This document shows, piece by piece, positions 264 through 63,938 of a stretch of DNA of 64,000 nucleotides; the stretch's first letter is position 1; every line of letters starts with the position of its first letter. The stretch is from Tetradesmus obliquus. Lineage: Eukaryota; Chlorophyta; Chlorophyceae; Sphaeropleales; Scenedesmaceae. Location: assembly GCA_030272155.1 (NCBI GenBank), contig CP126195.1:4881001-4945000 (forward strand). Direction: 5' to 3'. Under the pieces are notes generated by a model. It searched no databases and had not been told where the DNA came from. It worked only from the letters and a program-made list of their open reading frames with translations. Position numbers and translations under genes: made by a program.

Positions 264-3200
264 GTGTTGAGGCCGGCAAGACGGTGTTCTACCGTGTGGG
301 TGACCCACGCTACGGCTGGTCCGACATCCGCAACTTCACATCCACACCCGATGCCTTCCCCTTTGCCATCACAGTCATCGCAGACTCAGGTGCGTGTATA
401 TGAGTACCGGCATTCCCCAAATTCCCCAACTCAACCAGACTGCACAGCCTGCTTGTGATAGCTGCTGCCAGTTGCCAATGGCTGTGCGCTAGCAGTGTCA
501 GATTAGCAGGCTATGCTCGGATGCTGCCACCTGTACACACGTCTAGTTCAGTGCACTGTACTGCACTGCCGTGGGTGCACTGGCTGTACAGCCAACATTT
601 TGGCATTGCCGTTGCTGGCGCTCAGCTGCTAACTTCACAAATACGAGCATGCTTGCTGCTTGCATGGAGCATAACTGGGCCTGACAGGTTGACCTGAACC
701 GTGGCTTGCACATGTGATGCTGTGCACAAGAACCGAGGCAGTTGGAACTGCCCAGCACATGCTGCTCTCAGTCCCATTTGTTTCTCCTACATACAATGGT
801 GCCGGCTTTGATGTGTCCATGCAGGCCAGACTCCCAACACAAGTGCTGTTGTTCAAGGTGCCCTGGCAAGGAATGCCAACCTGTTGCTCAACGTGGGGGA
901 TCTGGTGTACGCAGGCAAGTCAATCAACTGTTGATGCCAGTGCCGTGGACTCACCTTGCAGCAGTGAAGCTTCAGCTGGTGCACCAACAAGTGCTACAGC
1001 ACGCTTTGCTGTCAACTGCAACCCAGAGCTGTCATTATAAAAGCAAGCTATACAATGATCCCTTGAAGTCCAAGGCTGGTACTGAGTATGTTGCTTTGGC
1101 TTATTTTGCCTGAGGCCTCCAGCCAGGTAATACCCACACAAAGATTCGATGTGCTCATCACCATGTTGATAGACCACTGATCGTACTTCCATCGTGCAGG
1201 CAGTCTGCCACGTTGATGCCACTGCAACTGACAACCTGAAAGCCGTTAGAGTCCGCCTTGAACAGAGCCCTCTTATCAGCAGCTGAGCCTGTACACATGT
1301 ATGCTGCCGTTTGTGACTGCTGTCCCTACAGACACCTTTTCCGCCTATGGTCAAGAGGTGTGCTGGCTGCGCAAGCTGTTCAATGTCAACAGCAAGGCCT
1401 ACCACCTGGATCCCATCCCGGGGCCGTGCCCTGCAGAGCCCAAAGTGATCATCGAGGCCCCAACAGTCTGTGAGTAGCAGCATACTGGCCGAACCCACAG
1501 GTTGCTCTCCAGAGGTGGATGCAGCCACACCAGACATGATATTTTACACATGTATAATGTGCAGCAACACATGCACAATGTTTCCATTGGCAGGAAGCCT
1601 GCATTGGGAGCTGCGCCCTAGTCTGGATGTGGCGAGCTATTCACAGCTATCCATGTGCTGCAACATACCAGCTCAGGTTATTGCTTTGACTGCCTGCTGC
1701 TGTGTGCTGTCGTCACGCAGATTCGCCTAAGTGGGACACTTGGTAAGCCTCGCGCACTGAATTGCCAGAATCCCCCTATACAGCGCATGCTTGGTCAACC
1801 TTACAATGGCAGATCACATGCTGCTACCTGTCTGAACTTGTGGTCATGGCATGCCTTGTCGGTAATGCACATCACTGTTGTCTAGCTATAGAAGTGCAAA
1901 GATGCTGCAGTTCTCTTACAATCATAGTGCCGCACGCAACCGGCTGTGCAGCGTGACGAGCAACCTCAACAGGCCTTGGATATGTGCATCGCTGCTTTGC
2001 AGGGCCCGTCTGTTTGAGCCACTGTTCTCCCACATCCCAATCATGCAGGCAAGTTCGACCTTCTTGACACCATGCTGGCCTGTTGTGCTGCAGTAGCGCA
2101 CATGCCCCTCTGCTCATAAGCCTGGCCACAGCAATGAAAGATGCTTACAGATGCATACGGATGCATTACCAGCAGTGGTGTGTTGGCAGTATCGCATACA
2201 ATATTTGTTGAGCTGGGACGCGGTCCACACACGCAACAACATAAATCATGCACCCTTTGGGCCCTACCCCACCCTGCAGGTTGCTGGCAACCACGAGATT
2301 GAGCTGCAGCCTGACAACCGCACCTTCACAGCTTACAACACCCGCTACCCTCAGCCTCAGAACCCTGGCTCCTTCCAGATCAACACCAGCGCTGTCCCCG
2401 CCAACGTGAATGGCAGCGACAACAACCTGTACTCGGCTGCTGTCGTCCCAGGCATTGCAACAGTGGTGAGCTGTACTTTGTTTTATAACAACACAAATAT
2501 GCAACAGCGTGTAGTTGGATGCATGATGCCAGGTCAGCTCAGTGTGCTTCAGCAGAGTCTGGATGCAAATGTCTAGCATGGTGCCTGAATTGCACATGGT
2601 ACACATGCCATGCTATGCCAAGCGTCTGCTGCAGCAGTGCGCAACTTTGACCCTGGTGGGTCACGCACTGCGACGGCATGCTGAGCAACAATCCCTTGTT
2701 ACCGATGTGTTCAGTTGCATATATGTTGAGGCACGACCCTAACACCGGCAGAGGTCTTTCGTGCAGCTAGGCAACAATCCTACGGCATCGCATACATATG
2801 ACCCACCCCCAGGTTGTGTACACATGTGCTGCCTCCTCGCAGATCATGCTGTCGTCTTTCCAGCCCAACGTGACCTTTGGTGGTGCTGATGACCGCCAGC
2901 TTGGCTGGCTCAAGCAGCAGCTGGCTGCAGTGGACCGCAGCAAGACCCCCTGGCTGATCGTCAACTTCCACGTGCCATCTTACAGCACTGATGCGTGAGT
3001 GACGCCGCTGCTGGAAACAGCATCTTGGATGGCCAGCTCAGTTTTCTGCTCAGTTTTGCACAGGCACACACTGCTGTATGTCACCTAGCAAGAACTGAAC
3101 CGATGGCAATGACTTGGCAAGACAGCAGTTTGATTTGGCGTGCAATGAATTGGCGAGCAAGAAAGTTGATAACAGCAAACAAGTCAAAGGTAGAATCTGG

Positions 3201-5882
3201 TACCTTCATATGGAAATCTGGTACCTTCATATGGAAGTTGTGCTCATGGCCAATGCTCACTCTCTCATTCTCTGACAACTGCATCTGTGCTTGCCTTGCC
3301 TGATGTGGCAATCCTCAGGGGCACCTACAAGATCCTGGACTGCATGAGGCTTGCCTACGAGCCCCTGCTGCTGGAAGCCCAGGTGGATGTGGTCTTCAAC
3401 GGCCACGTGCATGTGAGTGCTGGCAGTGCCAGCCTGTACTCTAAATGAATACAGTGTAGCCCAGGTGGATGAAGCCAGCCTGCCTGTAGCCCAGGTGAAT
3501 GTGGTCTTCGACGGCCACGTGCATGTGAGTATTGTTGGCCACTTTCCAGTGCATACCTGCCGTGTACTGGCGTGTGATCCAGAGGGTGACGTGATCATCA
3601 CTCGTGTGATGTTTACACCAGCTTCCAGTGAATTCAGCAAGTACTGCCACTGCTACAGAGCAATCAATCACCTTGGTCATGATGCGGCATGGCATGACCC
3701 ATGCGGCACGCAAACAACCAGAGGAGTCAGAAATACTGCCAGAGTGGTCTGTGGAAGCCCTGGCAGGGGACTTCCCTGTCAACTGTTGACATGGTTCTGA
3801 CCATTGCAACGGGCTGCCAGACGTGAGAAACACTTTTCTGAACACAGCTGCTGGTTAATTTGCTATGTTGGATTTCTGCTATGGGCTACGCATGCTGTAG
3901 CCTTGGAATCATGCTACAAGATGTGATGCACATCTGCGCTGCCAAATGCTGAGTGCAAGCGGGTGTGAAAACATAACTTGCATCATTGCCCCTCTTGCCC
4001 CGTGCCTATGCCTGCAGGCCTATGAGCGGACCTACCCCGTTGCCAACTTTTCACGCAACGACTGCGGCATCGTGCATATTGTGGTTGGATGTGCTGGCAA
4101 TGATGAGGGGCTGAGCAATGTGGAGGGATGGATTGATGAGGTGGGGCTCACATGTGTATACAGCAGCTGCAGCTCAGCTCATTTTCAATACAGCGGCTGC
4201 AGCTCAGCTCAGTTTCATTACAGCGGCTGCAGCTGTCGACTGAACACAGGTGTGATACCATTGCTGGCTGTCAGTACAATTGTACCGGTGCACCCTGGCA
4301 GCAGGATCATGTCATGCTGATGCTGTGATGACACATGAGCAGCTGTGGGCCATGGTTGTGTCAGTGTGTGTGTGGGGGGAGGGGGGGGGTCAGCTACTGC
4401 CAGTTCATAGCCTGCAAATTGTCGGCCCTTTCTGTTCCAAGTACACTATCACTAGCAGTGCACGTATGGACACGAAAGGGCCTTGCACTGCACAGCAGAT
4501 AGCGACCACACTGCTGAGCATTTCAAGTTATGCCACACGAACTGTGTACACGTTTGATGTTGATCATACTTGTACAGATGATGCCGCTAGGGTGGCAAAC
4601 TCCAATGCAAGCTAGCTCACATGTGTGTGTACAGCTGTGGCAATATCTTCTGTGCCACTAAAAACATGTTTTGCCACCATGCTTCCCACCACAGGTCGCA
4701 TCCAACTCCTCAGGAGCTGCCGCCTACTGCACCAAGGGCCCCCAGACCCGCAAGTGGCCCAACTACCAGCCCCAAAAGTGCCTCACCTTCCAAGAAGACT
4801 TGCCGGGCCCCTACCACTACTGCCCCTTTGAAATGCCTAGCTGGGCCGCGTACAGAGACACCAGCTTTGGCTCGGGCACGCTCACCCTGCACAACAGCAC
4901 CACGGCCACCTGGGAGTTGTGAGTGCGACTGATCATAACATTACATTACGTTACATTACGTTACATCACAATACATTGCATTACATTACATCAGCAGCTG
5001 TCAGTCACTGGGCTCATGGCAGCATACACACAAGGGCATGAAAAGAGCCACATTTGGTTGCAGGAGCCACAATGCATGTAAAATGACAGCTTCAGGCGTG
5101 GAAATGCACAACTGCATGTCCTCCCTGTGGAAACTGTGTACACAAATAGTGTTCAATGGCCTGTGCATGTTCTCTCTGCCAGAGTCTGGCTAGCCCAGCA
5201 AGGCAGGCATGCTGCGACAGCCTGAATGTGAATGTCACACGACGGGAACGTTGCCCATTGCCAGAGTATTTATATCCCACAGCACTTCCTGGCATGCAGA
5301 TTGCTACAGCATCTTCATACATCAATCCAGCATTCTGCCGTCCTGTGCATCAGCTCACACCGCGCTTGCTCCTGCTACTTTTGTTGCCGCTTCACTTCAA
5401 ACGTACCCTCCTCCACCTTGACCCACAGCTATCGCACACAAGATGGCGCCAACACTGTCGCTGACCGCATGACCCTCACACGCACCCCAGACAAGTGTAA
5501 GGACGCATTCAAGGCTGCAGGCTCTCCTGCTTCATCCCCTCAGCCACCCTCCAGCCCAGCCAGTCCCTCCTCCGGCAGTAGCAGCACTCCCTCATCACCC
5601 TCATCTGCATCTCCCTCTGTCTCCTCACCCCCTGGTCCAGACAACAGCGACCCACCAACCTTCCAGCCCCTGCCTCCTCACCCGCGGCCCCTGCCTCCTC
5701 ACCATCTCTCGCCTTGGCCCCAGCGCCCCAATCTGATAGCACTGCCAGCAGCGGCACTGCTGGTGGCAGCGCTGCTATTGGCAAGTGAGGCCCTGCTGTA
5801 CTACAGCATATGTACAACGACGAATTCTGGACAAAGCCAGGATCCCAAAAGACGCTGGTCATGTGTCACAGTACTAGTGTGA
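264..5882 (+). CDS. Purple acid phosphatase (metallophosphoesterase), 5'-partial, multi-exon
   Basis: Dinuclear-metal phosphomonoesterase, normally secreted or vacuolar, releasing phosphate from organic esters. Exons read: 264-389, 835-914, 1332-about 1470, one or two unclear exons near 1594-1676, 1721-1742, 2003-2048, 2280-2465, 2843-2994, 3319-3412, 4018-4140, 4695-4918 and 5429-5882. The metal-ligand motifs appear in order: IADSG (exon 264), GDLVYA (exon 835), GNHEIE (exon 2280), VNFHVP (exon 2843) and GHVH (exon 3319), then the usual C-terminal YERT/CG-VHI/PSWAAYR blocks and a YRTQDG segment. Exon phases agree except around 1470-1721, where I could not settle the model. Two introns use GC donors (CAG|GCAAGT at 915 and 2049). 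The N-terminal domain and start lie left of the window. The tail after about 5515 is Ser/Pro-rich. In the frame used it ends with a hydrophobic Leu/Ala stretch; a second frame is also open and ends earlier in SAAIGK-stop (about 5788). Family identity is secure; substrate and location are inferred. Confidence 0.93.
3194..3235 (+). repeat. Two tandem copies of a ~20-bp unit in a PAP intron
   Basis: Perfect tandem duplication of a 20-21 bp unit containing GGTACC and CATATG, inside the intron between exons 2843-2994 and 3319-3412. Confidence 0.85.
3486..3530 (+). repeat. Echo of the GHVH exon end plus its 5' splice site
   Basis: Copy of 3374-3418, offset 112 bp, with two substitutions over the 43-bp core and an intact GTGAGT donor after the CAT of GHVH. 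Both substitutions change residues (D to N and N to D around VVF) but leave the metal-binding GHVH. A shorter third copy of the AGCCCAGGTGGATG core lies at 3456-3470. The copies sit in the intron downstream of the real exon. Confidence 0.85.
4159..4238 (+). repeat. 30-bp tandem repeat, ~2.7 copies
   Basis: Units at 4159-4188, 4189-4218 and a partial unit at 4219-4238, each starting TACAGC(A/G)GCTGCAGCT. They lie just downstream of the donor ending exon 4018-4140. The intron also carries a GT run followed by a G-rich tract near 4368-4390. Confidence 0.85.
4936..4993 (+). repeat. Pentanucleotide ACATT/ACGTT repeat
   Basis: About ten degenerate copies of a TTACA/TTACG pentamer immediately after the splice donor ending exon 4695-4918. 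Simple sequence repeat within an intron. Confidence 0.85.
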
Positions 5883-6020
5883 CAGATGCGTGCAGGTGAT
5901 CCTGTGCCCCTGCACCTCAGGCTGGTAGCCCTGCCAGCAGCGGCACTGCGGGCGGCAGCGGCAACCCCTCTCTGTCCACCCCTGCTGGCAGCGCTGCTAT
6001 TGGCAAGTGAGGCCCTGCGG
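5739..6020 (+). repeat. Duplicated 3' end of the PAP coding region
   Basis: 5739-5800 and 5928-6020 share a GC-rich segment that in one frame encodes ASSGTAGG...SAAIGK-stop. The second copy has an extra ~33 bp in the middle and follows a plausible acceptor (CCTCAG at about 5919), so it could serve as an alternative last exon. The tract after each copy (GTGAGGCCCTG) is shared too. Confidence 0.7.
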
Positions 6021-6189
6021 CGCCTGCAGCTGCTCAGCATAAGTTGTTGTGTGATTGACCCGATGAATGGGGCAGATTGGATCCATGGCTTGCGGTTCTG
6101 TGTCATGCGGTTCTTGAGAGGCGTAGATGCCTTCTGCCTGAGGCACTGCACTTTGTCAAAGTTGGCAGAAGCCATGAGTTTGGAATGTC

Positions 6190-6760
6190 ATTGAGGGCGA
6201 ATTGTTGATGTCTCCTTTGTTGCTTGATGTCTAGGCAGCAGTTGCTTTTAAAACCATAAATTTATGGTCGCGACGTGAATGTTGCTAGTGGTTCATTGGT
6301 GGTCTCGTCATAAATAACTCTAGATCTAGCCCCTAGTTCAGAAGCATATGCAGTGTTTGTCAGCAGAGAGTTTCTGCGGATGCATTTTGAGCACGCACCA
6401 ATGCTTCTTGTTTGTAAGTATGCTACATAACGGATTGCTTGCTGTACTACAGCATCTGTGACAGAAAAGTGCAGATCATTGGGGGTGCATTGTTGATGCC
6501 TCCAGGGGGAAATACTTGGTTGGTTGATGGCTAGGCCACAGTTGCAGTGATGCTCACCGTGAGCATCATGACGGCGTCATAATCAATGCTAGTGGTCATT
6601 GATGGTTTCGTCATAAATTAGTCAAGGCCTTAGTTCAGCAGCATATGCAGTGTTTGTCAGCAGAGAGATTTTGCGGATGGGTTTTCAGCATGCATGTATG
6701 CTTCTTGTTTATCATGTGCTCAATGTAGGATGGCTGCTGTACTACAGCATCTGTGACAAT
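6190..6760 (+). repeat. Two ~290-bp tandem units downstream of PAP
   Basis: Units at about 6190-6480 and 6482-6760 share an opening (TTGTTGATG...TTGATGTCTAGGC), a middle (AGCATATGCAGTGTTTGTCAGCAGAGAG) given here only by position 6342-6370 and 6640-6667, and an end (CTGTACTACAGCATCTGTGACA, near 6443 and 6733). The end segment also occurs at about 5798 after the first PAP stop, so the array probably grew from the gene's 3' end. The tract could be 3' UTR. Confidence 0.7.
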
Positions 6761-7649
6761 AAGGTGCAGGTGACTGATGCTTCTGACATGGTGCTGTTAG
6801 TTGTCTCTGGCAATATTTGGGTTTGCAGGCTGGCTGCTGGATTGATTGCTGACTACCTTGTGCACACCTTATCCTTGCTTGGAGCTGTACAGCTGTACAG
6901 CACAAGTGCTCCCTCCTCATCCCCCTCACCCTGTCCTTCTAGCCGCTTCTGCAGCTGTGGGGTGCGGGGCCGATGGCCACGTCAGCTACAGCTTGAATGG
7001 TAACAAGCTGATGATCAAGCTGATCCGGATCCTCAGCATGTCGAGTACTTGATAGCAAGCCGTCATGAGAGTTACCCGGCACACAAGGCCTCAACGTAAG
7101 AACGAGCATGTAACCAAGACCAATAACACCTGCCAGCCTGCAAGCCAGCTGGGACAGCAGTTGCAACTGCCAGTAAAGGAATACAAGCAGCTTCTGAGCT
7201 GCCACAGTCCTGTTAACTCCTGCAACGTTGCAGCTGACTTGGCTGCGTAACATGCGACATCTTGTCAACAAAAACAAAATGACACAGCTGCAGTCACAGC
7301 AGCAACTTAATGCTGCACTGGGAGAGTTCGGTGTCCGAAACTGCCTGCCTTGCAGCAAACAAAAGCACGTGCCCTGCAGGAACAAGAACCGGTTGCTTTG
7401 CAGGAAACACAAACGCTGCAGCGCGCTGTGCAAACAAGATGTGGCAGTACGTTGCAGGATGCTGGCCACACCTGCACCCACAGCACCACATCACACAAGT
7501 TTCCACTATGCAGCAGTTGCTACAGTTGCTCGCAGACGTAGCACAGGCACTGCTAGCCAAGCATAACGCACGCTTGCTTGACTGCTGCTCAGCAGAATAG
7601 CTACATGCAGCTGCAAACAGCGCCTGCATGGCTGCACGGCCACAACCTC

Positions 7650-7650
<1 letters not shown>

Positions 7651-7704: not shown

Positions 7705-8600
7705 ACACACTAAACCCCTGACCACCTTGTAGAGGCGTAACACCAGCACACCCAAAGGCCCTGGCAGCGCCACCACCACCCAAGGTCATTAGCAGTCGCA
7801 CATGCGCCTCAACCACCGGCACACTTGCCGCAACCTCCACTTGCATTCAAGGCAGCAGCCCCTTGGCTGCTCGCCAGCCCCATTCAACCTGCCCAGTAGC
7901 AGCTGCAGCAGACGCCCGGCTTCTGCTGCTGCTGTTGCTAACTTCGGCGGCAGCTGCAGCAGCCAGACGTCCTGCTGCTCCCCAGCCCAACTCCTGGCGG
8001 CACAGCTGTGCTTGCTGCTGCTGCTGCCGCTGCTGCTTTTCAGAGCAACCTGCAGCTGCTGCTTTAGGCCCCCATCTGCTCTGCCTGCTCGATCTGCATG
8101 TAGACTCCCTCCGAGATCAGCGGGATCTCACAGTACCAGCCCCTGCGGCAGCAGCAGCGGCAGCAGCAGCAGCGGCATCAGCAGTGAAGTGTTGTCGCAA
8201 TTTTGCCGCAAAGTTGTCACATGCAAAGGACGTGTGTCAAGCGATGCTGTTGACACGGCTGATGCAACTTGCAGCAGAGCCCCATGCCACTACTTGTGCA
8301 CAAGCCCCTGAAAAGATGATGGAAGATGATGAGGCTTTTGTTCCTGCTGTCGGGTGTGTACATGATGAGGCCAGCGGTTTCTTCAAGTACACACCGAACA
8401 GCAGGAGCACAAGCAAGCCGCCAACCCGACTGCACTGGCTCAGCCAACACCTGCCAGCATGCAGCTGTACTTCCTTGCCGCCATCACACCCCCTAAGCTA
8501 GAGGCTGGCCTGGTGCCTTGGCTGCTCTCACAATCCGTACTACCATAAAGGCTAATGTGCCCTTCCTCATCCCTCTCATCCATCTCCCCTGCTGCCATTG

Positions 8601-8650
8601 TCTACTGACATCAAGCAGAAAAAGAGGCACTACATCAGCAGCAGCAACAC
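8601..8650 (-). repeat. Decayed echo of the end of Tic20-like exon 4
   Basis: About 50 bp resembling 8721-8770, the last codons of the gene and the stop/donor, offset 120 bp. The copy has an in-frame TAG where the gene has TAC and a GTCAGT where the gene has GTGAGT, so it looks non-functional. Confidence 0.65.
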
Positions 8651-8725
8651 AACCCCCACGCCCTCCCTTCCCCACCCGCATCCCCTGGCTGACAGCCCAC
8701 CCCACCCCTCCTTCTCCCGCCTCAC

Positions 8726-10999
8726 TCACATGAAGCAGAAGAAGAGGCAGTACATGACCAGCAGGAACACGAACCAGAACATGAGCGCGTAGAAGAGGTC
8801 GGACCAGGGCGTCCACAGCACGCCAAAGGGCAGGTTCTCCTCAACCACGATCAGGATCATGGCCACGATGTCCAGCATCACGCCCTGTACGGCAGCAGCA
8901 GCAGCGGCGGCATGTCAGTCCCGTCAAACAGCGCACGCAGTGTGTACTCAGCGGAGAAGCCATGCTACAGCATGCGTCACAAAGCATGCAGCAAAGCACA
9001 AGCGCAGGTGATGTTGTCTTCCTAGCGGTAGTAGCGCGCTGTAGCAGGGTGCACCAATGAATGCTTGAAACCCTGATGCTCCTCCATAGACGCGCTTAAC
9101 GTGCTCAACCCTCACCATCATGATGTGGTAGCGCGCCACGTGCGGGATCTTCTTGTTGCGCACGATGCCCAGGTAGGTGCCGAAGAAGATGATGAGGGGG
9201 GCCCACTCGTGGATGTAGAACCAGTGCTCAAAGGGCTCTGGGGGAGAGAGAAAGAGCAGGACAGTGATACAACAGGTTGTGAGCAGGTGGATGCAGAATC
9301 AGTGATCAGACGGCTCTGGGGGGCAGCGGTGAGGCGACAGCACAGCAGGACAAAGACAAGCGGCAGAAAGACGTCAAAAAGACGAGCAGTCAGGCCAGTG
9401 CTGAAGCAGCCGAGATCGTGAGGTAGTGAGGAACTCAACAGGCAGGCAAGCTGTCCAGCTGTCGGTGGGGCAACACTGGTTCTTTTCAACAAAGCCGCCA
9501 TGAACGCATCAGGCCCACCTGTGAAGTACTCGGTCCACGCAAACACCGGGAAGCGCTCAATGAAGTAGACCGTCTTCTCCGTCACATCCACCCAGGGCAG
9601 CATGTACAAGATGGCGGCACACAGCTTCCGCACGCCTTGATCACCTCTCACAACATTTCAGACCACTGTGACCCTCCCAACACCAGCCCAGGCCCACCCT
9701 GAAAAGTCTTATCAGAATATCACCATGAACTCTGAACTCAGCACCATGAACATCCCATCAAGCACGCACCTGTGAAGTACTCGGTCCACGCAAACACCGG
9801 GAAGCGCTCGATGAAGTAAACTGTCTTCTCCGTCACGTCCACCCAGGGCAGCATGTACAGGATGGCCGCACACAGCTTCCAGCCCCATGCCATGCCCCCT
9901 TCATTGCGGCCAAACTTCCAGTCCTTCTTCTGCTCGTCATCTTCATTCTCTGCAGCATCACCCGCCTGGCGCACCACCACGGTCTGCGGATGGGAGGTTA
10001 GACGCCAGCGGCGGCAGCAGCAGCAGTAGCAGCAGCAGCAGCAGGGACGGTGGTGCAAAGTACGAACATGCTGTTGGGTTATGCATGCTGCTGGTTGGTT
10101 TGCCCAGCACAGCCATGGGCTGCAGTTGAGCAGGAATGCCTACCAGCAGCAACAGCAGCAGAAACTGATGTTGCATGCGGGGTCAATCAGCTGCAACACT
10201 GCTTGGCTGCTGTACAATCAACACACAAGATCTACTGGGCTGCTGCGGCATGTTGATGATGAGGCATTTCTGATTGCTGAGCCTGGATGCAGCCTTTTGC
10301 TACAACTGCCTGCCACTGGACAGTGGGTGCAGCTGATTTGCCATTACACTGTTGCTGCTGCACATCTGTTGAACTATCAGCCATTTCACATAGCTGCATT
10401 TGCTTGCACAAGAACTAGGACACAGTAACTGGGACTCTGCGAGCCGCAGCGCTCTTTTTTAAGTAGCGCTGACTGCATTGAGATGCACCATTTCTTGTGA
10501 CACTTCAGCACTGCCTGGTGCTGCAAGTGCTGCAGCATTGCTGTATGTTGCACTGACATCCCACGCTGCGCACTGCCTGAAGCTGCTGCATCTGTTCAGT
10601 CCAACAGCAGCCAAGCGACCTCTACTAAATGCTTTGAACGCCTACTGCTCACCACAAGCCATTACCAACATAACAAGAGCAGATAGTACAATTGCAGTCG
10701 TATGCTGCTGGTGTGCTCACCTTTCTGCTGGAACATGGTTGCCGCTGCTGCAAAAGGCTGCTGTGTCTGCTGCTGCTGAGGCCTGAGAGCAAACAATCAT
10801 TAAAATTAGTCCAATCCTGCACCCCAAGCGTATTGCTGCAGCTCCTGTGTGCGGATGTACCTGTCTGCAGTGTGCTGCTCCTTACTCCTGGGCACAGTGC
10901 TGCTGCTGGCCGAAGTGGCTGCCTCGCTACCCTAGATCCAACACATTTATTTGCTAGCTGCATGCCCGGCCTGCAGCCCAGCACCCCGCTGCAGGCCAT
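8726..10999 (-). CDS. TIC20: Tic20-family chloroplast protein-import membrane protein
   Basis: Four exons on the minus strand: 10999-10721, 9983-9770, 9237-9116 and 8884-8726. They join in phase to 257 residues, about the usual Tic20 length. Exon 1 is a basic, Ser/Arg-rich presequence typical of a chloroplast transit peptide. Exon 2 opens with an acidic linker (ENEDDEQKKD), then the first membrane segment. Exons 3 and 4 give the remaining segments, with the diagnostic YLGIVRN followed by a RYH-MM stretch equivalent to RFNAMQ in Tic20. Tic20 forms part of the inner-envelope TIC channel for preproteins. The last codons FCFM-TGA coincide with a perfect donor (CAT|GTGAGT), so a further exon is possible, though I found none. 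A second copy of the core of exon 2 lies in the intron at 9519-9627. The specific Tic20 subtype is not determined. Confidence 0.82.
9287..9324 (-). repeat. Decayed echo of the start of Tic20-like exon 3
   Basis: Resembles 9209-9246 (exon 3 start plus its CCCCCAG acceptor), offset 78 bp, with roughly six mismatches. It lies upstream, in sense, of the real exon. Confidence 0.65.
9519..9627 (-). repeat. Duplicate of Tic20-like exon 2 core, synonymous changes only
   Basis: 109 bp matching 9770-9878 with six differences. All six are synonymous in the Tic20 frame (ATC/ATT, GTT/GTC, ACA/ACG, GAC/GAT, CTG/TTG, GCG/GCC). The donor side remains splice-like (ACAG|GTGGGC versus ACAG|GTGCGT). Upstream of the copied AAG the match stops and I see no strong acceptor. 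Offset between copies is 251 bp. Confidence 0.92.
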
Positions 11000-11990: not shown

Positions 11991-14246
11991 TCAGCTGCTG
12001 TTGGCTTTCTTGATGGGCCAGGGCTCATCGTAGGGTATCAGGTGCTTGCCCTTCTGGAAGCTCAGCACCAGATCGGGGCTGTTGCGCAGCGCCTTGGCAA
12101 TGTCGATCTGCGGCATCATGCGCTTCGCGTCCTGCAAGCAGCAGCAGCAGTAGCAGCAGCGGCGGCAGCAGCAGCAGCAGCAGGGGCAGCAAGAAGCATC
12201 AAATCCACTGTTGCTGCTTGAAACGTGCCGCGGTCTAGGTTTGTGGTTTGTTATTGAACTGCTGCAGCAGAAGTGGTCAGGGAAGTGCTCAAAGGCACAG
12301 CAGCAGCAGCAGCAGCAGCAGTAGCAGTGCAAGCTGCAAAGCTCTGAGCTCGGGCTCGCCACACTGCCCATGCGCTGGCGCCAACACCAGCACGTGTCTC
12401 TCAGCTGCCGTGGACTGCAGTGTCCTTCAACAACAAGATGGTTTGATGACTCAAGACCTGCCCTGCCAAGTTGTCTCTCCTTCCACTCCATGCACCGCAA
12501 CCATCTGAGAAACAAATCCCAGGCACTTCAACCGCCTCCGCAAAGTCCTGCACCTCCAGCACCCGCCCCGCCACACCTCCACTGTTACACCTGATGCGTA
12601 CAGTTGACACTGCAGCAACAACAGCTGGCCTGCACGCACACACACCTCAATCCCCTCCGCAAAATCCTCTACTTCAAAGCACCTGCAGCTGCCCTGCCAC
12701 ATCTCAAGCGCCACACCTTGTTGCGCATCACATACTGCAACAACAAACCAGGCGCCTGCAAATCACCGCACCTCAATTGCCTCTGCAAAGTCCTCTACTT
12801 CGAGCACCTGCGGGTGCTCCTGCACAAAGACATCCACCAGAATGCCCGGCAGCAGCGGCTGCAGCTGCACCGCTGCCTCCTCAACAGCATCTAGATCATC
12901 TTCCAGCAGCAGTGACAGCCGCCGCTCGACAAGCAGGCTGACATTGGCCTGCGGCGTCATCAGCAGCAGCCGACAGCAGCAGAGTGCAGCACATGGGGCA
13001 GCAGTGCAGTACAGTGCTGTGCAGGATGCGCGGCAACAGCAGTTAAGTGCTGTGACAGCTGCCGTTCGACAAGCAGGCTGACATTGGCCTGCGGGGGCAC
13101 AAAAGGTGACAGCAGCACAGTTTTGGTGGCTGCTGCTGCAGGACGACTCAGATGCTGTTGAGGCAGCAGTACTGCAGCGACAGCCGCGCATCAACCAGCA
13201 GGCTGATGTTTGCCTGCGGGGCCCATTGAACGACAGCAGCACATCCAATCTGCGGTGTCAGGCTGTGATGTATGCTAGCAGGCACCAGCAGACCAGTGTG
13301 GAGGAAAAAGAACTGCGGTAGTGACTGTGTTCAGCTGTCACTGTTGACTTGGATGACAGCTGCACAGTGCAGGTTGCGCCACACACACAGCACATGCACA
13401 CAAATGCAGCAAGGCAAACAAGCAGTCGCTGCCTTAAGCTGGTGGACGGTGGGGACCGCCAGTTGCGTCCTGCTGCTCACTGCCTTTGAAGCCGCTGTGT
13501 CTTGCTGACTTCAACACACCCAGGATGTCTAACATCAACCACATATACACAGCGTACGACCCACAAATCAGCAAGCAATCACCTTGGGGAATATCGTCCG
13601 CAGCCGCAGCAGCCGCGCAGCCAGCGTGTGCGTGGCAGCAGCCAGCTGTGCCAGGCGCTGCGGGGGTGCCTTGGCCAGGCGGGGCGCCAAGTCAGGCAGC
13701 AGGTTGCACAGGGTGGCTAGGCAGTCCTCAAATTCTGCTTCTGATATGCCCAGCTCCTGCGAAGCTATGCGCTGCATGTGTTGTGTGGTACGTGTTGTGT
13801 GTGCGGTCAAAAGGGTTGCAGGAGAGGAGCAGGAGCACAGGCGGGGCAGACAGAGGAAAGCAGCAGGGGTACATGACATGTCAGTGTCAGCTGTGCACGC
13901 GTACGGGCAACTGTGCCAATGCATTATTGTGTTGCGTGACGCGCTGCAGCATTGCTGTCCTGCAAGCATGCCAGTCACCATGTGGCATTGGCTTTTAACA
14001 CCTGCAAGCAGCCTTCGTCATTCACCCCCACGCAGCAAAAGCCGCAGTTCATGCAGGCCTGCCGTACAACAGCAACACCTTGCACAAGCAAGATACTGAG
14101 CTTGGCAATAGCCAGCGGCTACCTGCTGTGCTTGCAGCAGTGGCTCAAGCTCAGCTGTTCTCACAGTCATTGCCTGCTGCAGCTACGATGCTTGCAGTTA
14201 GCTGCTGCTGTTGCTGCTGCTGCCGCTGCTGCTGCTGCTCCTGCTG

Positions 14247-31636: not shown

Positions 31637-34600
31637 TCACAACTCCGCAGCCGCCGCCCCGCGAGCACCCGCCAGCTCCTGTACGCGCTGCGCAACCCGC
31701 GCAGCAGCAGCAGCGCCACTCCCCGCCTGGCCAGCAGCCTTGCTGCTGCTGCTGCTCACTGCCTTCCTCCTGGCATCGGGTGCAATGGAGTCCAGCCAGT
31801 GGCGGCCTGCCAGCTCTGCTCTGTCTGCAAGCAGGTCGCTGTAGTTGCGCCAGCTGGGGAACACGTAGGCCTGCTCCGCCCACACAGGGTCCTGCAAAGG
31901 AGCCAACACAGCAGCCCAGGCAGTGTGCAGACGATACAACCTCATTGTAAGAGATGAGCACCGCGCTGATGTGGGTGTTATTTCTGCTATCACAGGCCAG
32001 GTGGATGTGTCACAGGGTCGTGTTGCTGCTGTACGGTGTGGAGTGTTGTGTTGTGTCGATGCTGCGTCAGATGCATGTACAGGCATGCACTTGCATCCCA
32101 TCGCAACATCTAGATTTCCAGCCGTACGCTGGCAAACATGGAGCGCTGTGTTTTATAACAGTCATATAACACTCACGTCCTCGTGGATGTGGCGGCCGCT
32201 GAAGGCCAGCTTGTCATTATAGATGATCCAGATGTCCTCGTCAACAACGTCGTTGAAGCTGGTGTAGCTGCGGCGCGTCTCGTTCACGTAAAAGCGCACC
32301 GTCTGCAGCCGGGGCACGAGGAAGGCAAGAGATGGAAGCTTTGCAGCAGCGCAACACGCATGGAGAGCAGCAGGTGCGTAACGAGGAGGATGGAAACAAG
32401 GGAGCATACCCATAGCAGCTGAGGCACGTGGGTGGGGCTATGCAGGAATTGGCATTAAGAAGCAGATAAAGCAGAGATGAGAACAATCACAAGGTGCAGA
32501 GCGCACAAAGCAGGCTGCTGCATGGGCGGCATACTCACCTGGTGGGTGATCTCCGAGGCCCAGTAGCCGTGCGGGATGTTCTTGTGCTTGGTCCACTCAA
32601 AGGTGTTCTTCTCAGGGTGCCACTGCAGCCCCAGGATAGGGTACTCCTTGGCTTCCACAGTGCTGATGTACACCTGCAGCACAGATGAATCAAGGGTAAC
32701 TGAAGTCACAGCCGCTTGTGCCAAGCATCTAAGTGTTGGCTTCCATGATGGGCTGCTCCTTGGCCTCCACAGTGCTGATGTACACCTGCAGCAGCACGGG
32801 GGCAACCATGACCAGTGTGATTAGCACTGCTGAACTCGAGTTTTTGACATTCAAAGGCGGCAGCAGGTAGGAGCATGCGAAGAAGCACAGCACCTCACCC
32901 TGCCGTCCTGTTGCTTTCACCGGCTGCAGCCTTCAAACCGCTGCGCAACCCGGACCCAACAGAAAGAACACAAATCAACACATGCTCCTTCAAGGCATAC
33001 GTTATGCCCTTGTTCTAATCAACGGACCCACATATGCTACACCTACAATGTGCATCACAACAGTTTTGCTAAGTCCGCACTGGTACATAACCTTGCTTCC
33101 TTGTGCAGAAGAGACATGCCATGAAGTTACACATGTCAACACACACACATACACACCCCACCTTGCCCTCCTTGTCCAGGCTGAGTGTGAGCGGGTTCAT
33201 GAAGGCAGCCAGCTCCTTGCTCTGGTAGAAGTCCTTCAGGCTCACGCCGCTGCTGTGGCTCTCACGAGTCAGCGGCGTCTGCGCCAGCAGCCACAACACA
33301 GCACGACCTGAAGCACATGTGATGCACCTGAGGTGGCAACGCATAGTGCTAGATCGCCAGGAGGGATGTACATGTACTGCATGGTGTGCAGCAGTGCAGC
33401 GGCCATGTGTTTGCACTATGAATGTCAACCGCAACTGCACATGTGACAAAGCAACTGCAGCTGGAGTAACCTTGCAAATCAATATACACCAATGTTTACC
33501 TATCGCAAAGTACAAGCACGTAAGAAGGCAAACAGCCGCAGCTGCTGATTGTTACAGACGCACCTGCAGCACATCAAACACAAGGTCCAGGTCCCAGGAC
33601 TGGAAGAAGCGGGAGTCTGGTGCATCAGCGGTGAAGTACAGCTGTGCTGCCATGCCATCGCTGCTGTATGGCTTGAGGATGTCGTGGTTACCTGCAGCAG
33701 TAAAAGGCAGTATAGGGCACTACAGTTGCCACACAATTTCAACAGCTTGCTCAGCTGGCTGTTTGCTGCTGTAAGACTTGATGGCATGATTGCCTGCAAA
33801 CACAGAAGCCGTACCCTGCAGCTGGCCGGCAGCATGACAAAAGAGGCTGAAAGTTTGCAAGCCATCACGGGACAGCAGCACACGAGGTGGTTGTGTCGGT
33901 TGAACAAACACGCTGCCACTTGCTTGACACACTTGTGCCTGTAACTTTGAAGGCACTTCTGCTAGTTGCCGGCTGACGGATGGCTGTTGCAGATAAGATG
34001 GTGATGCCATTGCACACGCATCCACGCCAGAGGCGCACGTTTGCAGGAACTCTGCTGCTGCTCTGTGTGCCGCTGCAATGGCTGCAGTCTCCGCTGCCAA
34101 AACTCAAACTTAACCTCTGCTGCTGGTAGCAGTGCTGAAAGCGACCCCTCAAAGCAACCCCTTGACCCCCTGGCACCCGCTGCGGCTGCTGGTCAACACA
34201 TCTATGCGCAGCCGCACCTGCTGCACAGCTGCGCCAAGAACATATCCATGCGCAGCCGCACCTGCCGCACAGCTGCGGTACACAACACGCCCGCACCGCC
34301 GCACCTGCTGTGAGCACCATCAGCGTTTCAAAGCCCAAACAGATGCCCATCACAGGAAACACGTTGCCGGCGTCATTGCTGCGCAGCGCAAAGTCCAGCA
34401 CGCGCGCTGCGGTGTCGAAAAAGTCATGCCCTGGCCGCAGGTTTGCGGCACCTCCAGGGATGAGGAATCCATTCAAGCGGCCGAGCAGACCCTCCAGCTG
34501 CAGGCAGGGTACGTGTGCAGCGCAGGGGAGGGTGGTTTGTTAGCAAACATGGGCGGTGGCAGGGTTTGAGGGGCTTTGCAGCTGCTGCGGGGGGGTGTCT

Positions 34601-35034
34601 TGCACTGCTGTGTTGATGCAAGAAGCGGGTGGGATGTATAAACAGCAGGGTTGGCATGGTGTAAAAAAGCCGTGTTTTGGCGGCAGGTTTGCGGCACCCC
34701 CAGGGATGAGGAATCCATTCAAGCGGCCGAGCAGACCTTCAAGCTGCAGGTGTTGATGGATACATTGCATTTGGCATGTGGCAAGCATGGGTGTGAGTGG
34801 GTGATTGGGGGTTGTTTGATTGGCAAGGGCAGGCGGCGGCAGGGTATGGAGGGCATTGCAGCTGACACAGGGCAGGTGGTATGTGTTGCTGCTGTGAATG
34901 CAAGCATACTGGTGTGACGTATGCGCTGCTGCAGTGCGGGTTTGGCGGTGAAGTGGTAACTGCATCCTTACACTGCAGCCGTAAGGCTTTGCAGTCAAAC
35001 AGCACCACTGCTGGTGCTACCCCTGCTGTGCAAC

Positions 35035-36301: not shown

Positions 36302-38403
36302 TCACCAGGGGATCTTCTCTCCCTTGAAATCATACCACTCCCCATTCAGCGGCTTGCTGCTCTCCAGCACGCCCAGCATGCCCGCCACGCTCTCCTGCAC
36401 ATCTATCAGGCCCTGCCCGCCAGTCATGTTGGTGCGCACATATCCTGCAAGCAGCAGCGGCAACAAGCAGAAATGCATAAGCAAGTGACGGCTGTCAGCA
36501 ACTCAAACAGCCAACTAAGCATTTTGGTGTGCAAGGGGCAAACGGCAGCATCTGTGGCTGCGGGTTGCATATGCAACACTCCCGGCATGGCACCAGCTGA
36601 AGTTGCGACAGCACGCCTTGCATGATTGCTGTTGCCAATCGCCCTAACAACACCCTCACCATGCGAACAGCACAACCACCTCTGGTTGCATGCATGCACA
36701 ACACATAAAACAACAACGCGCAGGCTCACCAGGGTGCAGCAACACACACATGACGCCGTCCCCAGCCAGTTTACTGAGCACAACTGACTGCATTCAGCTG
36801 CATCAAGCCAACCGTGCCAAAACATGTGTGCTCACCAGGGTGCAGCAGCACACATGTCTCATGTGACATGAGACCCCGTCCCCAGCCAGGTCACTGAGCA
36901 CCGCTAGCTGCATGCAGCTGCATCAAGCACCCATGCAACAATCTGTATGCTCACCAGGGTGTAGCAGCACGCACGTGACGCCATCCCCAGCCAAGTCGAT
37001 CGACATGCTTTTGTTCACGATGTTCAGCGCCGATTTGCTGGCCCGGTATGGGTAGCCGCCGCCACCCCTGTTGTCATCCACTGAGCCCACTTTGCTGCTG
37101 ACATTAGCGATCAGCGTTTTGCCGCCAAAACCGCCGATGAGGCCCGCAGCCAGCAGCTGCTGCACCACGACCAGGGGCCCAATGGTGTTGACCTTGAAGC
37201 ACGCGATCATGTCTTGTTCGGTTACTGTTTTTAGGTCCACTTTCGATCCGTACACGCCTGCGTTGTTTATGAGCACATCCACGTGCCGCAGCCCCCTGCA
37301 ATTGTCCCTCAAGCTGCAGTCAGTGTGGTGCAGTCAGTGGGAAGCAGGCGGCACAGGTGGGGCGACAACAGGCATAAAGATCAGGAACATGGAGAACCCA
37401 AGTGAGCACACCGGCAACACAGCACGAGCAGGGAGTCTGTCCCTGGCTGCTGATACGGCAGACCGGCAGAATCGCGACACGAGATGTGTGACTGCTGCAA
37501 ACGGCTGTGCCTTCATCAGCTGTGGCGCGTGTGAGCATTTCACACAACCGCGCATCCAATGCTGTGACACGCCGGCATGCGCTGCTTGACAGCCACACTG
37601 CCACAGGAGCGGCTGCAAACATCTGATGAATGGCGTGCTGGAACACCTCTGGATCAGCATTGCTTGCAAGTGAACGGTTGTGCTTGTACCATGCCTAAAT
37701 TTGTCATTTTACACCTGCTTCATATCAATTCACGGCAGTGCCTGCAGCATCTCCTGCGCCGCAGCAAGTAACACACCATGTAACCCCTCTGTCTATGTAT
37801 CCGCAGCCACCTTCCGCAGCTCACCCGCCAGCCCAGCGTGTGATGGATGCTGTTGAGGACACATCCAGCTGCGTCACGTGCAGCCTACCCTCGGGCGCTG
37901 CCTGCTCCAGCTGCAGCAGCCCTGCAGAGGGGTTGCGCACCGCTGCCACCACTGTGTTGCCCTTGTCCAGAAGCTGCTTCGTGAACTCAAGCCCCAAGCC
38001 CTGCGGATCAGAGTTGTGCTGTCAAGTGTGTGTTGCTTTACTGGACTGTACTATGTTGAGCACTGCGTGAGCAGCAATTTGAGCACTGCAGAAGTTGAGC
38101 AGTTGGGCCAAGGGTCACTTGCAGGAGATAGCAGTGAGCAGCTTGGATGACTCCAAGCCGTCGCTGTCAAACGTGCTTTCTGCTATCTGTAAATGAGAGT
38201 TGCTGCTGAAACAGCACATGCACTTCATCCTGCCCACTGCCCAGCCTCACCTGTGATGCTCCAGTGACCACCACCTGCTTCCCTTGAAGAGCAACGCCTG
38301 CCATAACTGCCACGCGCGCCTTTGGTCGCACTGCGTAGTTCGAAGGTGCTGTCGGCCCCCTTGCTGCTGTGAATGGGCGCCTTGTGGGGCAGGAGGCTAA
38401 CAT
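36302..38403 (-). CDS. Short-chain dehydrogenase/reductase, probable plastid presequence
   Basis: Minus-strand exons: 38403-38251, 38000-about 37811, about 37295-36955 and 36444-36302. An NAD(P)-dependent oxidoreductase with a Rossmann fold. The cofactor motif VVVTGASQGLGLEF spans the exon 1/2 junction. NNAG, a NVSSKVG serine strand and the catalytic YPYRASK (Tyr-x-x-x-Lys) lie in exon 3, and the C-terminal HPGYVRTNMTGG...WYDF-GE-IPW runs into exon 4. Total about 275 residues. The first ~34 residues are Arg/Ser/Ala-rich, consistent with an organellar presequence. Junctions 1/2 and 3/4 are in phase. At 2/3 the best-looking donor (AAG|GTGGCT) and acceptor (GCAG|GGGG) differ by phase, so that boundary is uncertain. 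Members close to this C-terminus include C-factor/sniffer-type reductases; substrate unknown. Confidence 0.86.
36724..36931 (-). repeat. Two echoes of the SDR exon 3 end plus donor
   Basis: 36724-36775 and 36829-36895 resemble 36947-36998, the codons for LAGDGVTCVLLHPG and the GTGAGC donor. Flanking sequence (ACTGAGCAC ... CAGCTGCATCAAGC) is copied too, so the unit is about 105-120 bp and occurs three times. Each copy keeps CACCCTG|GTGAGC. Confidence 0.88.
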
Positions 38404-40957: not shown

Positions 40958-41038
<81 letters not shown>

Positions 41039-43780
41039 ACGCTTGCAGTTTGGTTCCGGCGTGACTGTCGCTGACCTACAAACCGCCAGCGGCTACCTGC
41101 ACAACCTGGCAACCTGGGTAGTGCTGCAGCTGCGGCCGCTGCTGGCTGCACTGCGAACAGACCCTTGGCTGTCTGCAAGGCAGCAGCTGGGTCTGCCAGG
41201 TGTGTCCACCAGCTGCCCTCTGTCCAATGCAGTGGCCTGGCTGAAAGGAGTGAGGCGCTTTGAAAAGTGTGAGGGAGTGCTGGATGTGGTACTGGCGAGC
41301 TGGGTGCTGGAGCACCCGAGAGGCCTGCAGCCAAACCAGGTGCTGGTTGAGTTGTGAACGCGTGCTCTGCATGGTGTTGACATGGGTGATGACACACTGT
41401 ATTGTGTGCGAAGTTTTACTGATGGTTGTAATTCCTATTTGGAGCTTGAAGCGTCCGAAGGCTGTGCAGCTCTCTACAGGTCGCTCCCGTGCAATCTGCA
41501 TGCTGCTGTGCTGCTTCTGCTGTATACCATCCCCAATCCTGAGAGCAGCAACTGCTGCCTGTGATGCGAGCAGGTGCTGGTTGGTCCAGGCACGCCCCGC
41601 CCTGCCCAGCCCATATCTTCCCCACCCGATGTGGCAGCTTTCATCGCATCCGCACAACCACTAAGCGCCAATGACAATGCCAACATAAACAAAAACAAAG
41701 CCACTGCCAGCAGCGGCGGCTTGATATTTGTCGCCTTTGGCACCAGCCTGGCATTCACCAGCTGGCTGAGCAGGGAGGATTTTGTGCAGCTGGCGCTAGG
41801 GTTTGGCGCGCTGGCGCCTGCCAAGGTTTTGTGGAACTTGCAGGAGGCTGGGCTGCCGCATGGGCTGAAGCTGGCAGACCTGCCTCTGGCTGACAACACA
41901 AAGGTGTGTTGTGTTGTTGATGCATGTCAACGGTGTTGAAAGAGCTGCGCGGCACAATTCGTTTGCTAAAACCAGGTTCAAGAGTTAGTGCTGCATTTAC
42001 TGAGTGCTGCATTTACTGGGTTGAGCTGTGAAGTTTGGTGCTGCAGCTACCAGTAGCGCGCAAACATGCCGGTCTGTGTGCCTGCTGTTTTGCTGTCGTA
42101 CGGAGCGCAGCTGTCTTTGCACATCACACTGACGTTAATGTTTTTTTTGTGGCTGCGCCCGCCTGCACTTACTGCCAGGTGGTGGACTGGGTGGATTACA
42201 ACGTGAGTGCAGCCAGGAAGGAGAGTCATACCTTTTTCTGCTGGCAAATGCTTGCTTTGTGGTGCTTGACCTGGCTGCCAGAGGCATGCCTGCTGTACTT
42301 GTGCATGCATGTTGTGTCGTGCTCTGCATACAGCGCACGGACACATGCAGCAATGCCTGTCACACAGTGCTCAGCAGTCACAGGCCTGTCACCTGCATTC
42401 TCTGCTGCGCAGAACACCTCACACTTGGCCGCAAGCAGCACAGCACACATTTACTCTCCGTGTTCCCAACCGCAGGATGTGTTGGGCCACCCTGCAACTC
42501 GGCTGCTGGTCAGCCACTGTGGGCTGCACTCTATCTATGAGGCGGCCTTTCATGGCGTGCCAGTGGTTGGGTTGCCCTTCATGTTTGAACAGGTGCGTGC
42601 AGCAGCCACAGCGAGTGAGCTGCATCAGGGGATTGTGGTCAGTACGACAAGCATGCACTGTGGTTGGTCAGATGTGTAGTTTATGCATTACTTTACTTGG
42701 TCTGATGATTCACAAGCCACCAGCCTCTTTGGTGTTGTCACCGGCATACATGCCTGTAGGTGCTTCCGCCGCTGCAAGGCAAGAAGCGTGTCTGCAGCTA
42801 TGTTGTGCGCCAGTGGAGCAGGGCCGGTTACAAAAGGCAGCAGTTTTGTGTTCTGCTGCATCCATGCGGTGTGCTGTGTTGCGCTGCACCTGCAGGCTGA
42901 CAACTGCATGAAGCTTGCAGCCAGGGGTGCAGCCGTGCTGTCCCAGCAGGCACCGGCATTCAGGTGCTACAATGACAGCGGGGCCAGTAGCAGCAGCTAC
43001 AGCAGCCAGCACCTGGTGCAGCTCATCAAGCAGGTGAGAGCGTTGATCATAGCAGGCACCAGCATTCAGGCAATACAATGGCAGCAGTGCCATGGTTGAG
43101 AGGAGAGCGTCGGGGTTTTCAGGAGTTTGATTCAAATCTCTGCCCCTGAACGTCAACAACGTAAGGGGAGGGCGTCAAAAACACACGAGGCAAGCATGTT
43201 GATGACGTTCACAGAGAGTTTGCATATGGCATGTAAGCATGTAGACATCCTGATGTGCGTGGAATCAGTGTTCACATGCTGCTGTCGTGCAGAAAATAAA
43301 ACAGCCATTGTCACCAGCAACGCCAGCGGACATGGGAATAGGCAGCAGCGAGTAGCAGTGTGTGTCTCAATGCCTTGTGTGCTGCTGCAGGTGCTTCACA
43401 CCCCTGGCTACGCTGCGGCTGCCAGGCGCCTGTCAGGTGCCCTGCAGGCATATGCAGCAGCACGACACCCCTACAAGCGAGCAGCAGATGAGATGGAGCT
43501 CGCGCTGCATTCGCGGCATGCGCAGCAGCTGCAGGCGCTGAGCTCAGACATGGAGGCCGGGCGGCCGCAGCAGCACTCTGGGAAGCAAGCAGTCTTGGAT
43601 CCCACAACAGACAGGCAGGAAACACACCAGCCACAGCAGGATTATCAGCACCAGCCTGCAGATATGTTGGAGCCTCGGCTTGTGGAGGGTGAGCAGGGCA
43701 GTGGAACGCAGCAGCCACTTGAGGACAGCGCAGGCCGCACCGGCAGTGCAGACGGAGGCCGTGATCAGCAAGAGCTGTAG
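38733..43780 (+). CDS. UDP-glycosyltransferase (GT1 family)
   Basis: Twelve exons in phase: 38733-38893, 39081-39125, 39493-39619, 39835-39907, 40127-40239, 40575-40736, 41049-41339, 41574-41903, 42179-42202, 42476-42592, 42896-43033 and 43391-43780; 656 residues. It transfers a sugar from a UDP donor to a small acceptor. The N-terminus (MQPFKTTAKS... LWLSLLAGVQC) looks like a signal peptide or anchor. The N-terminal Rossmann domain shows FLFVPLLGNS and AAELRSRGHAV. The donor-binding domain shows FVAFGTSLAF, VVDWVDYN and, in exon 10, SHCGLHS-YE ... GVPVVGLPF ... EQ at about residues 454-481, which satisfies the classical UGT signature. The last ~100 residues are a Gln/Pro/Asp-rich tail instead of the membrane anchor of animal UGTs. 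The acceptor cannot be predicted. Exon 9 is only 24 bp. TGTAA, the algal polyadenylation motif, occurs at about 44146. Confidence 0.9.
40961..41037 (+). repeat. (CTG)~25 run just upstream of a UGT 3' splice site
   Basis: The longest uninterrupted triplet run in the window. It ends 11 bp before exon 41049, separated only by CTCACGCTTGCAG. Confidence 0.97.
43053..43090 (+). repeat. Echo of part of UGT exon 11
   Basis: About 38 bp resembling 42947-42985 (CAGGCACC(G/A)GCATTCAGG...TACAATG), offset about 106 bp. It is located 20 bp after the donor of exon 11. Confidence 0.75.
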
Positions 43781-49938: not shown

Positions 49939-50753
49939 CTACATGGCTGCCAGCACTGCAGCCGTGTCCTGCAGCAGCCCCTCCCATATGGCTGCCTCCA
50001 CAGCCAGTGCCACCTCAGCCTGCGCGGCACGCCTGTCAGCCCAGGAGCGCTCCACCTCCTGAGGGGGGCAGCAGCAGCAGCAGAGGATGCGACAGCGGCA
50101 GCAGCAGTAGCAGATGCGTCAGCAACAACGGTGTTGATGCATTCACCAGCTACAGCAGCTGCAGCTGTTCGGCTCATCTACTTGAAAGCAGCGAGTCAAT
50201 TGCCCAACCGGATCGCATACGCGTCTGGCTAGCAGTCACATCGGTCTGTTATGATTTGTATCTGCTCCTTTCGCCCCCTCCCCACATGCAATCTTTCTGG
50301 CACCACACACATACACACGCAGCACACACCTGTGCATCCTCGCCCAGCATCCTGTCCAGCCCCAGCTGATCCCGCACGCGCTGCTGTTGCACAAGCACAC
50401 TTGCCTGTCCACCCTGTCTATCTCCTGCCTTGGCTGTAGAGACAAATGCTGGTAATCTTCCTGTCTGTGAGCCTTCCCCCCCCCCCCCCCCCCCCTCCCC
50501 TCCCCCCCCCCCCCGCCGCCTGCCCAACAATCCAACCTTATTATGGTCACATATTAGGCTGCAACCCTCATCTGCCCACCTGTGCATCCTCGCCCAGCAT
50601 CCTGTCCAGCCCCAGCTCATCCCGCACACGCTGCTTGGCCCAGCCCGCCACGCGGCCAGCCACCTGCGCAGCCAGCTGAGGCTGCGGCGGCAGCGGCCGC
50701 ACCGCGCGCGGCTCACCGGACGCAGCCTCAACCGCCGGGTGCAGCTGCACGAC

Positions 50754-57807: not shown

Positions 57808-57839
<32 letters not shown>

Positions 57840-58326: not shown

Positions 58327-58364
<38 letters not shown>

Positions 58365-59013: not shown

Positions 59014-59045
<32 letters not shown>

Positions 59046-59173: not shown

Positions 59174-59211
<38 letters not shown>

Positions 59212-63778: not shown

Positions 63779-63810
<32 letters not shown>

Positions 63811-63938
63811 CAGCCGTCATCCTTCAGGGACAGCCGTGAGCCCTCAGAGCTCGGGGTGAGCACGCCGCGCCAGGCGCGATCAGGCTGCCAGCCAGCCGCC
63901 TCGCGGGCAGCCAGCTGCTGCTGATGCTGCCGCGCAGC
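49939..63938 (-). CDS. Giant Q/A/S-rich coiled-coil scaffold, CEP350/TRM-like C-terminus (5'-partial)
   Basis: Fourteen minus-strand exons join in phase: 63938-63492, 63283-62558, 62335-61649, 61427-60121, 59917-59643, 59365-58612, 58324-58162, 57985-57068, 56822-56679, 56393-53624, 53290-51732, 51427-51047, 50744-50580 and 50058-49939. That is 3471 codons to the stop; the start lies beyond the right edge. The protein alternates coiled-coil segments (LETAQDAELDLLLLQQAQ; AQAQLSALNRHVEAI) with poly-Gln/poly-Ala. Short acidic-aromatic motifs recur: YSEDFA, YSEDFE, YSMEFA, YTIDFS, EYSDWE. The C-terminus (HTIEYITAAL ... LWLERDFKPEW ... HIWHKALYDAANQAL ... ERSWADRRAAQAEVALAVE) resembles DUF4378 of plant TRM proteins and the related end of centrosomal CEP350. 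On that basis I infer a basal-body/microtubule-organising scaffold, with moderate confidence. Exons 62335-61649 and 59365-58612 share an internal repeat. Confidence 0.72.
50329..50392 (-). repeat. Echo of the scaffold exon 50744-50580 end, exon-like
   Basis: 64 bp matching 50579-50643 with about three to five differences. It has its own AACAG acceptor and GATGCACAG|GTGTGT donor. The enclosed 54 bp are in frame and read QRVRDQLGLDRMLGEDAQ versus QRVRDELGLDRMLGEDAQ, so it could be a cassette exon. Confidence 0.88.
50476..50514 (-). repeat. Poly-C/poly-G tract in a scaffold-gene intron
   Basis: 39 bp with only two T interruptions; on the transcribed RNA it is a G-run able to form quadruplexes. 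It lies between the real exon 50744-50580 and its echo at 50329. Confidence 0.9.
50755..50803 (-). repeat. (CTG)n tract at a scaffold-gene 3' splice site
   Basis: About 16 CAG units on the plus strand, (CTG) in the gene's sense. The run ends about 10 bp before exon 50744 and takes the place of a normal pyrimidine tract. Confidence 0.93.
50851..50908 (-). repeat. Echo of the scaffold exon 50744-50580 start
   Basis: About 50 bp resembling 50704-50755: acceptor GTGCAG and codons LHP-x-EAASGEP. It lies in the intron upstream of the real exon, offset about 147 bp. The real copy has GGTGAG where the echo has GGGGAG. Confidence 0.75.

Follow-up and report, generated by a model that had tools for sequence, protein, structure and literature searches.

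Introns in a 64-kb window of the Tetradesmus obliquus genome (C5:4881001-4945000, within an assembly of 104.66 Mb in 17 contigs) hold short direct copies, here called echoes, of the edge of an adjoining exon together with a few bases of its splice signal. We think it probable, though well short of certain, that echoes arise by short-range tandem duplication over exon edges, followed by faster loss of the intronic half of the duplicated unit, with the echo perhaps refreshed by gene conversion.

Repeats were surveyed by self-BLAST, after masking of simple repeats, in the window and in random 10-kb stretches. The pair survey covered 304 kb (the 64-kb window plus 24 random 10-kb stretches) and took pairs lying no more than 1200 bp apart; clusters of pairs were compared between the window and 200 kb of random sequence (20 of the 10-kb stretches). 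With pairs inside arrays counted separately, the 304 kb contained 223 local direct pairs and a single inverted one, and one Markov-shuffled version of the same 304 kb contained no local pairs. Besides the window, 17 of 20 random stretches had direct repeats; of the full 24, three had none. The initial annotation had treated echoes as a trait of the window and had warned of the outcome that they might be no more common than duplication elsewhere. That outcome is the one found: the window is below average, with 22 pairs in 64 kb against 201 in 240 kb of random sequence (by clusters, 16 in the 64-kb window and 56 in 200 kb). Of 82 clusters, 58 had a smallest offset of 75-149 bp and 78 one of 75-274 bp, with fewer at 200-275 bp. 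Should such rates apply to the whole genome, local duplication would be a major route of intron growth in this alga. Two spacers between copies were searched against the whole genome and proved single-copy but for one 40-bp match, which argues against a mobile element as the spacer in these two cases. The cluster tests described below (junction placement, coding, splice signal, simulation and spacing) used one pair per cluster; 40 of the 82 clusters hold more than one.

Exon structures of Tic20, PAP, and GGH were established by placing the homologous proteins P0001, P0093, and P0096, respectively, with tblastn. P0001 is annotated as Tic20, and two Tetradesmus obliquus records match the window Tic20 protein at 96% identity over a 173-residue query. 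P0093 is taken to derive from a spliced message because its source contig, at 2475 bases, is shorter than the gene; the longest source contig for P0096 (3617 bases) is likewise shorter than the GGH gene. Gene labels at the random loci came from a home-made HMM trained on the same sequences and are noisy: it missed true exons, such as the GGH exon at 34.4 kb, it labeled echoes as exons in PAP and Tic20, and by our reading it did the same in several random genes. If repeats are as frequent throughout the genome, other gene predictors can be expected to call false repeated exons in the same way.

The three protein-mapped genes contain six junction-spanning echoes, one at a donor in PAP, two at donors and one at an acceptor in Tic20, and two at acceptors in GGH, and all six are missing from P0093, P0001, and P0096. 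In PAP, the functional exon tail, which runs to 3412 and is followed by 6 bp of donor (3368-3418, plus strand; self-BLAST, P0093, and HMM), recurs in the intron at 3480-3530 (plus strand; offset 112, 90% identity), and P0093 joins GHVH directly to AYER. Tic20 lies on the minus strand. Its exon tail and 5 bp of donor at 8724-8775 (donor 8729; P0001 mapping) are echoed at 8604-8655 (offset 120, 83%), where intron-flank homology is left over (p=0.004). The exon start and acceptor at 9209-9244 (acceptor 9238; P0001 mapping and HMM) are echoed upstream in the intron at 9287-9322 (offset 78, 86%), and the exon tail and donor at 9744-9880 (donor 9771; P0001 mapping) are echoed at 9498-9629 (offset 246, 90%). 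A genome search with this last echo returned two places, both at its own locus. In GGH, also on the minus strand, two functional exon starts with acceptors mapped by P0096, at 32631-32681 and 34418-34504, are echoed at 32743-32793 (offset 112, 90%) and 34664-34750 (offset 246, 90%), the intron flank still being homologous in the second case. Thus, self-BLAST and protein mapping together bear out the initial proposal that introns of these genes hold copies of exon edges with their splice signal.

Further repeats lie around the PAP gene. The coding end with its stop codon (5712-5796, plus strand; functional copy by P0093 mapping) is copied in two pieces past the stop at 5901-6018 (plus strand; offsets 189 and 222). 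Since the pair 5755-5796/5977-6018 spans the stop codon and P0093 ends in AIGK, this echo lies past the coding end and is no splice-junction case. A contiguous tandem duplication with a 288-bp unit follows at 6188-6776 (unstranded; 73% identity). Separately, a dispersed repeat of ~110 bp at 147-262, within the first HMM intron of PAP, ends just before the acceptor; it carries an ATTC-repeat tail and has at least 39 other matches in the genome, at 74-80% identity and on both strands. Searches of the window against Rfam and for tRNA genes gave no match.

In all, seven of ten genes in the window had been proposed to carry echoes, nearly always across a junction, and beyond PAP, Tic20, and GGH the proposal held for SDR, by reading of the sequence, and for the scaffold gene, by HMM label and reading. 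The SDR gene, which matches Pfam adh_short, has an exon tail, donor, and intron start at 36899-36993 (minus strand), taken from our reading as the functional copy, and, downstream, a contiguous array at 36677-36890 (minus strand; approximate limits) with two echoes of tail and donor at offsets of ~106 and 222. We place the donor at 36955 by reading, and the HMM put that exon end elsewhere. In the scaffold gene, on HMM labels and reading only, we assume that the exon tail with 3 bp of donor at 50577-50635 (minus strand) is the functional copy and that 50327-50385 (minus strand; offset 250, 97%) is its echo, with weak intron-flank homology (p=0.004). The remaining two genes fared less well. In UGT, which matches Pfam UDPGT, an intronic copy does exist: exon-interior sequence at 42945-42979 recurs in the next intron at 43051-43085 (both plus strand; offset 106, 86%; self-BLAST, HMM, and reading), but the pair misses the HMM donor at 43033 and so spans no junction. 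For the helical protein we found by self-BLAST only an adjoining tandem array (12513-13221, minus strand) with units of ~119-140 bp. CAG/CTG triplet runs are dense on both strands of the window, the longest perfect run being 77 bp (40961-41037).

Echoes of the same kind occur at a random locus, L010, in a gene that we take to resemble Lon protease. The gene is of the AAA+ family (PF00004), and its borders are HMM calls. One intron, in the region 7907-8439, carries echoes of both the upstream exon end and the downstream exon start, and a third echo lies at another donor; one of the three blocks ends ~11 bp before the junction. At L022, several copies of a ~140-bp unit that by reading comprises an exon and a short intron span 1228-1994, with one pair 94% alike, and this array is possibly a set of alternative exons. 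L029 contains a 23-bp satellite (3945-4204; unit by reading) whose copies are 99% alike.

The initial annotation placed copies of exon starts upstream of the exon and those of exon ends downstream of it, and this was so in all nine exon-edge cases (six in PAP, Tic20, and GGH and three in the AAA+ gene), as tandem geometry forces it to be. Its further claim of a local duplication process whose unit often straddles a junction is also supported. The claim that duplication is biased to splice junctions, or retained there, stood in part. Of 72 clusters, 23 spanned a junction by the HMM labels, which are imprecise and include echoes among the exons, and random placement of the clusters on those labels gave 24.3. 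In a label-free test on 52 short blocks whose copies were at least 84% identical, we scored splice signals within 14 bp of a block end, exon side inward, in either copy. At threshold 2 such signals were present in 33 of the 52 blocks, against 20.1 ± 3.6 expected (wrong-way control, 20 against 22.2), and at threshold 3 in 13, against 5.4 ± 2.3 (wrong-way control, 4 against 6.3); a lax threshold of 1 gave no clear excess (40 against 37.0 ± 3.3). The two tests therefore indicate that duplications are not placed preferentially at junctions, and that the sharp blocks that survive often end there. Retention of the exon half accounts for part of this excess of splice signals. In 44 block-junction cases, with the copies of one pair counted separately and an exon side of at least 12 bp required, the median intron side was 11 bp and the median exon side 39 bp; the intron side was 9 bp or less in 18.

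Traces of tandem duplication in the intron beyond the block were found in a minority of cases. Of 21 hand-picked pairs, 19 were testable; UGT, which has no junction in its block, and SDR were left out, and L012 5687 has no usable flank. Intron-flank homology at the same offset was detected in 4 of 19 at p≤0.004 (the second GGH echo, the scaffold, one Tic20 donor, and an AAA+ donor) and this footprint was absent from the other 15 exon-edge cases; for exon-interior flanks the figure was 2 of 18 (p<0.05). In mixed repeats, with array pairs counted separately, 23 of 31 pairs had higher identity in the HMM-exon part than outside it (mean difference 0.064), which is the direction predicted by constraint on one copy. 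The likeness of the exon parts and the intron-flank matches favor an old tandem duplication. Contiguous repeats of exon plus other sequence occur in L022, L025, L030, and other loci, and the same-offset intron footprints and the contiguous arrays, including the three-copy SDR array, support our reading of echoes as products of tandem duplication.

Spacing between copies is harder to reconcile with decay. Among clusters with at least 84% identity and an offset below 400 (n=51), 39 pairs were spaced: 30 of 34 exon-labeled pairs and 9 of 17 others. The labeled split overstates the contrast, because contiguous unlabeled pairs at L012 6138 and L022 1231 look exon-bearing; two of the nine spaced unlabeled pairs are missed exons (GGH 34.4 kb by protein and L012 5687 by reading). 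We simulated tandem decay with one copy constrained, using the HMM labels and constraint values of our own choosing. With indels set close to the rate observed, 15% of the simulated cases came out spaced; for exon pairs the share was 44% at an indel-to-substitution ratio of 0.3, nearly three times the observed rate, and 69% at a ratio of 0.6, over five times that observed. The observed ratio was ~1 to 9.4 in contiguous non-exonic repeats, where aligners tend to undercount indels. Plain tandem decay was thus rejected as the whole account, since at realistic indel rates the simulations stay below 30 of 34. Decay would also struggle to produce the scaffold block, 97% identical with hardly any intron homology. 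The excess of spaced pairs and the blocks that often halt near a junction could reflect gene conversion, selection, or copying limited to exons.

The sequence of events that we favor would begin with short-range tandem duplication throughout the genome, by a unit that starts in an exon and finishes in the adjoining intron. The copy attached to the exon body would stay functional, and the other would be stranded in the intron. The intronic half of both copies would then diverge freely, the functional copy would keep its exon edge and splice signal, and the exon edge of the echo may be renewed by gene conversion from the exon, so that the part still recognizable consists of the exon edge and a few bases of its splice signal. 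The duplications probably stem from unequal exchange or from fill-in of staggered breaks. Gene conversion is our preferred addition, and would be the reason that exon edges persist so sharply. The sharp splice borders also make it possible to gauge, in a natural setting, how long exon copies without a function last and whether conversion keeps them up. A bolder form of the idea, which we regard as doubtful, is that a process copies or homogenizes exon edges up to the splice-signal border and not the intron beyond, filling introns with splice-competent replicas; DNA-level homogenization limited by splice-site constraint, or RNA-linked copying, would fit such a process.

The strongest rival to tandem duplication, though on balance unlikely, is that a repair or RNA-linked event pastes a 30-140-bp exon edge into the adjoining intron without the intervening intron sequence. 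It would explain at once the short intron sides, the right-way splice signals at block ends, and the preponderance of spaced pairs among exon-labeled ones, but the last of these contrasts is overstated, and such copying does not predict the same-offset intron footprints in 4 of 19 cases, the copies that directly adjoin each other in SDR and elsewhere, or the placement of all nine echoes on the side that tandem duplication allows. Moreover, no mechanism is known to us by which the borders of splice signals would be recognized in DNA. Selection that keeps echoes because they act as decoy or alternative splice sites, or because they supply alternative exon ends, would account for block borders that coincide with splice-signal borders, and some echoes do look constrained: in the large Tic20 echo (9498-9629) all six differences in 36 coding codons are synonymous, as are all four and both differences in two AAA+ echoes. 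Across eight traced echoes, however, 21 synonymous differences stand against 19 non-synonymous ones and two echoes carry stops, which amounts to no coding constraint and leaves the shortfall of the decay simulations in place (the count leaves out the second GGH echo, missed by the HMM). An annotation-free coding test gave p<0.05 for 8 of 53 blocks, where 2.6 would be expected (12 more clusters had no usable block), and mismatch phase over 197 pairs was 0.333. On these last two results coding constraint on echoes is not general. Partial exon ends could not be swapped as cassettes, and the earlier suggestion that echoes could provide splice sites finds no support in the available PAP, GGH, and Tic20 proteins, which skip them. 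We therefore consider selection an improbable general cause.

Two other explanations carry far less weight. Joining of second-haplotype pieces beside the first during assembly would produce synonymous-only differences and diverged introns much like those of Tic20, but it accounts poorly for preferred offsets, for the many pairs outside exons, for arrays of more than two copies, and for megabase-size contigs, and we judge it very improbable. The proposal that echoes stem from intron creation, in which exonic AGGT segments are duplicated in tandem, is the least credible. That model does require local duplication beside splice sites (PMC4974935, PMC3443670), but in its precise form the offset should equal the intron length, and here offsets of 78-246 bp accompany introns of ~480-750 bp: 112 against ~605 bp in PAP, 246 and 78 against ~532 bp and 120 against ~587 bp in Tic20, and 112 against ~480 bp and 246 against ~750 bp in GGH. 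Intron creation was thus not supported in any of the three genes. We return to short-range tandem duplication, with the intronic half lost faster, as the preferred reading. Literature searches, which were partial, not aimed at echoes in this alga alone, and had most subscription papers outside their reach, turned up no account of such echoes in T. obliquus.

Patch-mediated tandem duplication in plants yields short direct duplications near their source. The echoes appear similar to these in being short, local, direct copies, but in T. obliquus unrelated DNA often seems to lie between the copies. Introners (PMC9860276) also place repeated DNA within introns; they form a genome-wide family, whereas the Tic20 echo, the sole echo searched, matches its own locus only. 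In potato, according to a review (PMC3443670), a short tandem duplication across an intron-exon boundary gives a new, spliced intron. The starting event resembles the one proposed here, but the outcome differs: the potato intron is new and spliced, whereas in T. obliquus an old intron is lengthened and the echo is skipped in three protein-backed genes. Tandem exon duplication and mutually exclusive exons (PMC9741552, PMC9013439) likewise double exon sequence beside itself. Mutually exclusive exons need the copy to be an entire exon, open in frame and flanked by both splice sites, whereas the PAP, Tic20, and GGH echoes have one exon side only; as part-exons with one splice signal, the traced echoes are therefore unable to replace the exon. 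Arrays such as that at L022 may come closer to mutually exclusive exons.
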